Positions 35,893 to 37,282 of a DNA stretch of 37,350 nucleotides are shown here, piece after piece. Within the stretch, counting starts at the first letter, position 1; each line of letters opens with the position of its first letter. A program made the position numbers and the translations under genes. The notes under the pieces were generated by a model. It saw nothing but the letters and a program-made list of their open reading frames with translations, searched no databases and was not told where the DNA came from. The stretch is from Gammaproteobacteria bacterium (lineage in GTDB: Bacteria > Pseudomonadota > Gammaproteobacteria > SG8-11). The stretch covers positions 1-37,350 of the forward strand of contig JAADIM010000055.1 of the NCBI GenBank assembly GCA_013151345.1, read 5' to 3'.

Positions 35893-36086
35893 CAATGATC
35901 CTAAATAAATCAGTTGAATCTACTGCGGACACCTAACGCACTGAATCTAACGCGTTTTTCCATTTTTTAAGACTCACCCGTAGAATGACTTGACTACGCG
36001 ATCGCCTTAAAAAATGGAAAAACACGCTATCTTCAGCACCTTAGGCACCCTCGTTACGATTCAACTGATTTATTTAGGATGATTGA
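35893..36086. repeat. 194-bp palindromic element with 28-bp outer arms
   Basis: Outer arms 35893-35920 and 36059-36086 are inverted copies matching at 27 of 28 positions (shared core cctaaataaatcagttgaat). The homology continues inward with gaps: cgcgtttttccattttttaag pairs with cttaaaaaatggaaaaacacgc. The centre is near 35990, in the acccgtag...ctacgcg loop. The right arm contains the start codon of the GNAT remnant. No transposase and no clear target-site duplication are seen. Confidence 0.85.
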
Positions 36087-36366
36087 ATTAAGAGAATATA
36101 AAAAATCCGACACTGATATATTAGTACTGCTCGCCAACAATAAGCGCGTTTCCAGATATCTGGTCTACACATTCCCATATCCATATACTCGAAGGAATGC
36201 AGATTGGCGGATAGCAGTTGGAGCTAAAGAAAATGGAGCTTTGAACAAAGTTATTGAATATCATGGTGAGTTTGTCGGCAGTGTTAGCAATTATATTGTC
36301 ACCCAGCCGCCTCATATGCACATAAGCGACATTGTTGTTCGCCTCACACGCAAATATTACCCATGA
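36079..36366 (+). pseudogene. truncated GNAT acetyltransferase
   Basis: 95 codons. The first 70 or so (IELREYKKSDTDILVLLANNKRVSRYL ... EYHGEFVGSV) match the start of RimJ/RimL-like GNAT enzymes of about 170-180 aa, including the YLVYTFPYPYTRRNADW block. After GEFVGSV the text (SNYIVTQPPHMHISDIV...) no longer fits the fold, and the acetyl-CoA loop (R/Q-x-x-G-x-G/A) and C-terminal half are missing. I read it as the 5' fragment of a gene cut by a rearrangement. The ATG lies inside the right arm of the palindrome. Confidence 0.7.
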
Positions 36367-36817: not shown

Positions 36818-37282
36818 AAACACACTCGAACTGACTCCAAACCGTGGCGTTTCGCTACGCTACACTCTGCGGTTTGGAGCGACTGAGCTTGGTCGTTATT
36901 CTTATAAGTTGAAGAAAAGCTAATTATGAGTATTAGTTAAAGCTATTGTCATTGAGTTAATTGCAGGAAGCATTATAAAATCATGTCACAATTAAATGTA
37001 ATAATTGTGTTGAGTACTTCAGTCTCGATTCTCAATACCATTGTTCAGCTATTTATTATTAATTGAATATAACACTATATGCGGGTATAAATATTTCATT
37101 CCCTGGCGAATCACCATTTTTCATTATGCTCATAATAAAAGAAGCGCGGATATCCTCGGCACAACAACCCTCAATTTGAGTTCAGAAATGGCCTTAACTA
37201 CAATATTCCAGTGGACATATATCGTTGCGCTCCTTTTTGTACTGCCGAGCTCAATCATTATGTTTTTAAATTGGTAGAATAA
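36818..37282. other. gap with a strong hairpin; no convincing gene
   Basis: A 10-bp perfect stem ctccaaaccg (36835-36844) and cggtttggag (36870-36879) has a 25-nt inner part that can itself fold (gcgt...acgc). The sequence after it ends in ggtcgttattc. A 78-codon TTG frame (37041-37277) has a hydrophobic end (TYIVALLFVLPSSIIMFLNW) but no Shine-Dalgarno or recognisable family, so I do not call it a gene. Confidence 0.5.

Follow-up and report, generated by a model that had tools for sequence, protein, structure and literature searches.

We found that the near-palindrome in the window (the whole 37,350-nucleotide stretch of DNA analysed) is a non-coding MITE, an element of a kind already known. 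Very probably it was moved in trans onto the start codon of a GNAT acetyltransferase gene by a DDE transposase of an IS1380-type subgroup. Its hairpin interior is not derived from the IS, and in a few copies of the element tracts of one arm have been rewritten to match the other.

The palindrome is real. An inverted-repeat search recovered outer arms of 28 nt (35893–35920 and 36058–36085) that are 96% complementary (27/28), and inner arms of 52 nt (35932–35983 and 35994–36045) that are 77% complementary, bearing out the near-palindrome and the inner homology of each half described in the initial annotation. The RNA fold of 35900–36078 reached −69.4 kcal/mol (shuffled mean −25.8, z −11.7), and the DNA fold −40.8 (shuffled mean −12.2, z −9.2); in both cases 0 of 200 shuffles were as good. 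The true borders, set by comparing copies, are 35900 and 36078: complete copies start with CCTAAAT or nearly so, have the inverse at the other end, and show five bases directly repeated just outside. The element is free of internal ORFs of at least 60 aa. The seven outermost bases of each 28-base arm are flanking host DNA (the duplication ATGAT and two more bases); the local target, CAATGATTG, is a palindrome too, identical on both strands, and this made the arms come out overlong by 7 bases per side. The locus is laid out as follows.

35895–35899, plus strand: left target duplication ATGAT, with the ATG of the target gene (sequence).
35895–35936, plus strand: 13-codon frame that starts at the upstream ATG, enters the element and ends at a stop (translation).
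35900–36078, no strand assigned: the MITE, 179 bp (copy comparison for the borders; hairpin fold).
35900–35920, plus strand: left terminal inverted repeat, 21 bp, perfect, CCTAAATAAATCAGTTGAATC (sequence, repeat search).
35932–35983, plus strand: inner left arm of the hairpin (52 nt, 77% complementary to the right arm).
35984–35993, no strand assigned: hairpin tip between the inner arms (repeat search; 25 own copies aligned).
35994–36045, minus strand: inner right arm of the hairpin (repeat search).
36058–36078, minus strand: right terminal inverted repeat, 21 bp, perfect (sequence, repeat search).
36079–36083, plus strand: right target duplication ATGAT (sequence).
36079–36366, plus strand: GNAT acetyltransferase remnant, a 95-aa ORF with homology only over residues 1–70 (tblastn).

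The hairpin tip is the part that varies most in length among the 25 own copies aligned. In L010, L014, L015 and L019 the length-variable tip carries N in the assembly, and this part may thus be hard to sequence or unstable. Rfam gave four matches to the element, all below the gathering score and three of them microRNA families, as expected of a hairpin. No DNA similar to it was found in plasmid and phage records at E 1e-5, and promoter-like sites within it were at chance (1 found, 1.3 expected).

We compared the element with its own genome, an assembly of 2.18 Mb in 134 contigs that is 68.5% complete, and obtained 83 alignment rows, both strands counted. When a copy was called complete only where an end has a partner end 30–400 bp away, 38 end-to-end copies were present among the loci fetched from this genome, spread over many contigs: 25 of 173–184 bp, ten of 203–234 bp and three of 106–110 bp. 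Nine of the 38 contain N; five of the ten long copies do so (11–52 N), and the lengths of these are uncertain because the runs of N lie inside them. The longer copies L024, L031, L034, L037 and L040 have an extra G+C-rich segment before the right end, with a small hairpin of its own (GCCTAC...GTAGGC).

Identical 5-bp flanks were found at 30 of the 38 own copies (shuffled pairing gave a mean of 3.2 and a maximum of 9), a positive outcome for the proposed check for further copies with flanking duplications, and at 41 of 62 copies from other genomes (mean 6.8, maximum 16). The latter sample comprises 62 of 64 other-genome pairs, a pair sharing a right end and a copy with less than 25 bp of flank being left out. 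A sixth flank base matched in only 1 of the 100 copies. The motif WTNAW was fitted by the left flank of 35/38 own and 57/62 other copies, and by the right flank of 34/38 and 55/62, respectively. Extended palindromic targets were dropped, as symmetry fades more than 2 bases from the centre. Copies, duplications and fold together support the suggestion, made in the initial annotation, of a MITE-type, non-coding hairpin inserted at the gene. Identical flanks are lacking at 8/38 own and 21/62 other copies; at six of these 29 (2/8 own, 4/21 other) the flanks are reverse complements, as are those of the IS in the genome SZUA-41, described below (TTCAA and TTGAA).

For 35 of the 38 own copies (those with flanks under 300 bp were left out) we determined whether removing the element would leave an open frame of 150 aa or more running through the junction. 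This was the case for 7 of 35 copies, compared with 53% of 4315 control positions taken from these flanks, so own insertions lie mostly outside long frames. At six loci in this genome (L010, L012, L013, L030, L035 and L168) open frames terminate 4–9 bases inside the element end, at a stop codon provided by CCTAA or the duplication.

At the window locus the right arm had been credited with the ATG of the acetyltransferase gene. This proved wrong: the ATG at 36079 lies within the right duplication and the same ATG lies in the left one, so it is host target sequence present on both sides. The gene start is thereby corrected, and the duplicated ATG is of a sort able to mislead gene calling. The downstream ATG now directly abuts the element end (TTTAGG), and the original leader is thus severed from the gene. 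The claim of a broken acetyltransferase gene held in that the remnant is real as homology: tblastn matches to GNAT-annotated proteins extend over residues 1 to 69–70, and residues 2–70 match a 184-aa frame in a same-family genome. The insertion alone does not account for the break, because the homology runs about 70 residues past the insertion and then stops within the gene; the loss of the 3′ part is a separate lesion. Pfam at E 0.001 gave no family for the 95-aa ORF. A look for the empty site in relatives gave no match to the remnant in G001 (same genus) and, in G003, a homologue whose DNA similarity is confined to 62 bp within the gene. Elsewhere in the window, downstream of an ABM-domain ORF, a compact inverted repeat (36835–36879; 21-nt arms, 3-nt loop) is followed by ...GGTCGTTAT and is attC-like to the eye; a stretch 83% similar to it lies at G000:C68:3236–3289.

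The MITE family is patchily distributed over Gammaproteobacteria. Genome contigs scanned for the 17-bp end yielded at least 106 stretches. Among the matches listed, end pairs with a spacing of about 175 bp are present in Cellvibrionaceae MAG.082, Methylococcales SI037_bin4, Thiohalomonas L138_T1, a symbiont of Taylorina and several MAGs with no finer name than Gammaproteobacteria, and Ectothiorhodospiraceae NORP100 has a 200-bp relative; full-length matches are about 69–78% identical to the window element, and three Methylomonas pairs (238–240 bp) have only the end in common with it. Also among those listed, matches in Oscillospiraceae, Clostridia, Elizabethkingia and Haloplasmataceae, and in Amphibacillus, Virgibacillus and Jeotgalibacillus records, lacked a partner end and were not scored as elements. 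Of 369 genomes drawn evenly from the window's class, nine, the own genome among them, have exact paired ends 170–200 bp apart; the interior is visibly different in one of the nine (G160). The sampled same-genus and same-family genomes (G001–G004) gave no match to the element.

The partner of the family is, probably and with good support, an IS1380-type transposase. The subgroup concerned has open frames of 508–524 aa in 1.6–1.7-kb elements (1586–1710 bp) with ends CCTA.....[TG]CAGTT, and was found in genomes carrying the MITE or its end and in some others. Among 50 IS1380-type loci (L179–L228), paired ends of the MITE kind were present only at L182, L183, L184 and L189; at L190 and L196, which cover one and the same fragment, only one similar end is present. 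Proteins recurring beside unpaired ends formed three groups, none resembling a transposase.

The MAG SZUA-41 (listed as both G057 and G188, whose contig and coordinates coincide) has an IS with an open 516-aa transposase, P0001, and one end reading CCTAGATTAATCAGTTG; several bases of its other end differ from the MITE end. Exact CCTAGATTAATCAGTTG makes up 16 of 25 end-like sites in this genome, the IS's own end included. Five complete MITEs were present in 20 stretches fetched from it. Three of these (175–176 bp) are 71–74% identical to the window element and carry the CCTAGATTAATCAGTTG variant at one or both ends. The IS end aligned with the two MITEs compared over 18–19 bp without mismatch, and no other significant alignment was found; since only the ends are shared, the MITE interior is not a deleted IS. 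The remaining two, of 233 bp (L276 653–885 and L280 695–927), have CCTAGATTAATCAGTTG-type ends and a different interior, and probably represent another MITE family served by this transposase. P0001 scored 74.1 bits with PF13701 (cut-off 34.7) and 130.9 bits with NCBIfam NF033539 (IS1380; cut-off 180), and because it passes the former cut-off and misses the latter we term the partner IS1380-type. Members of the IS1380 family duplicate 4–5 bp of target. Identical 5-bp repeats flank two of six whole IS copies (TTTAA and ATGAT) and are absent at the other four.

The PF13701 profile gave no match in the own genome. P0001 as query did reveal a decayed transposase copy, with an end, CCTAAATTAATCAGTTA, at G000:C131:8534 that matches the MITE end at 16 of 17 bases; transposase pieces lie behind it at G000:C131:8603–9119, the middle is missing, and there is no recognisable right end. 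No complete IS with exact MITE ends was found in this 68.5% complete assembly, and the partner may have decayed in the host's own lineage. Looking for a transposase with the same ends, as had been proposed, was thus successful for one IS end in SZUA-41 and, in the own genome, for the decayed copy only. The 1.9-Mb assembly of Thiohalomonas sp. L138_T1 (G072) gave 39 matches to fragments of the subgroup transposase, many of them close to contig ends; this genome carries a heavy load of the IS or its remains.

We analysed the interior in an alignment of 18 chosen elements from many genomes. It folds into one long hairpin in which 96.9% of cells are paired, in genomes about 30% apart. Changes on both sides occur in 13 of 46 pairs (shuffled mean 9.1; 1 of 500 shuffles as high), and covariation is 0.194, compared with 0.098 in shuffles, while slid partners reach 0.068 at most. 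Further pair types are no more numerous than in shuffles (21 and 20.6, respectively), and the structure has the advantage of having been obtained from this very alignment. Arm analyses within the own genome used 25 of the 38 copies (170–186 bp), and the rewriting test also 16 Cellvibrionaceae copies (170–180 bp). The changed cells of the 25 copies comprise 60 one-sided unpaired, 5 one-sided paired and 11 two-sided paired.

At the 16 positions where the consensus arms differ (diagnostic sites), some copies carry tracts from the opposite arm. In L035 six consecutive left-arm sites have right-arm letters; in L009 (3335–3508) three right-arm sites are switched, with one beside them switched in the left arm. 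In the G346 copy C161, 32 bases are identical in both arms where the sister copies C14 and C346 differ, and all three copies have perfect 5-bp duplications. Altogether 63 diagnostic cells are changed in the 25 own copies, many of them shared by descent, with 34 matching the opposite arm and 29 not; the 16 Cellvibrionaceae copies have isolated switched sites only. The excerpts available of two studies (PMC7202029, PMC8604942) describe template switching that homogenises the arms of imperfect inverted repeats in tracts, and template switching is the simplest reading of the tracts seen here. Occasional rewriting of one arm from the other would be at least part of the reason why the arms stay complementary.

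Retention of the hairpin, with covariation, across genomes about 30% apart, and the rarity of own copies in gene interiors, could alternatively be taken to mean that the hairpin is a domesticated repeat, selected for an RNA or cruciform function in the cell, whose mobility is past. We consider this quite unlikely. Rewritten tracts yield paired changes without selection, one-sided pair-breaking cells in the own genome outnumber two-sided paired ones, and further pair types do not exceed the shuffles; any insertion would be expected to avoid genes, and promoter-like sites are at chance. Another view of the interior is somewhat less doubtful, though we hold it only tentatively: it might be a part in its own right, common to MITEs of several Gammaproteobacterial lineages and not derived from the compared IS, which stays palindromic in the long term through arm-to-arm rewriting together with selection, the folded form aiding mobilisation (an IS1380-type transposase might, for instance, use it as a cruciform or single-strand substrate, or it could act as a replication-linked signal).

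It is very unlikely, in our judgement, that a transposase of another family moves the MITE and that the likeness of the ends to those of the IS1380-type subgroup is a coincidence. Such a reading could draw on the lack of an intact partner in the own genome, the several whole IS copies without clean duplications, and the partner's score below the NCBIfam cut-off. However, the IS and MITE ends in SZUA-41 are identical over 18–19 bp and follow that genome's variant letter, the own genome contains transposase remains following a matching end, the duplications at two whole IS copies have the same length and motif, and paired ends of the MITE kind surround only the subgroup among the 50 loci. That the element is an integron attC site, or an ordinary promoter or terminator palindrome, is hardly credible, even though a long imperfect palindrome does adjoin a small gene: copies are dispersed over many contigs and carry 5-bp target duplications, whereas an attC cassette site would have no flanking target duplications.

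Taking the IS1380-type subgroup as the partner, we propose that its DDE transposase, encoded elsewhere, recognises the MITE's ~17-bp ends (CCTAAATWAATCAGTTG) and inserts the MITE at 5-bp WTNAW targets, duplicating them. At the window locus the target ATGAT would have held the GNAT start codon, and insertion would have placed an ATG on either side of the element and cut the gene off from its leader. The 175–180-bp hairpin interior, not derived from the IS, would at times have had one arm rewritten from the opposite arm, most simply by template switching in replication. For a patchy Gammaproteobacterial MITE family this provides a probable transposase and a precise rule for its targets (5 bp, WTNAW), and diverged copies within one genome appear to record the arm-to-arm rewriting of long imperfect palindromes. 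New to us are the MITE family, its target rule and the arm rewriting; the excerpts retrieved from open-access literature (including PMC10969869, PMC4133298, PMC11578231, PMC3281130, PMC9208149 and PMC3542288) tie no MITE family to IS1380.

In the portions of these sources that we consulted, MITEPye1 has ends matching IS1182 (PMC11578231) and TIMEs have ends matching Tn3 (PMC4133298). Like both, the window MITE is small and non-coding, with IS-like inverted ends, direct repeats, a long stem-loop and a mostly intergenic location; it differs from both, as far as those portions go, in its sequence family, its partner and its 5-bp WTNAW target, and is far more numerous than MITEPye1, for which the same excerpt gives 1–3 copies per chromosome (PMC11578231). 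The partner shares the PF13701 DDE domain with the IS1380 family members ISEcp1 and IS1247, but its subgroup has 508–524-aa frames and the SZUA-41 protein falls below the NCBIfam cut-off. According to the excerpts at hand, ISEcp1 makes 5-bp duplications (TATGA; PMC2887853), a target that does not fit WTNAW, and IS1247 is 1672 bp long with 16-bp repeats and 5-bp duplications (PMC3281130). The homogenisation of arms in tracts resembles quasipalindrome correction as the consulted parts of PMC7202029 and PMC8604942 present it, except that for the window MITE rewriting is read from dispersed copies rather than from mutations observed as they happen.
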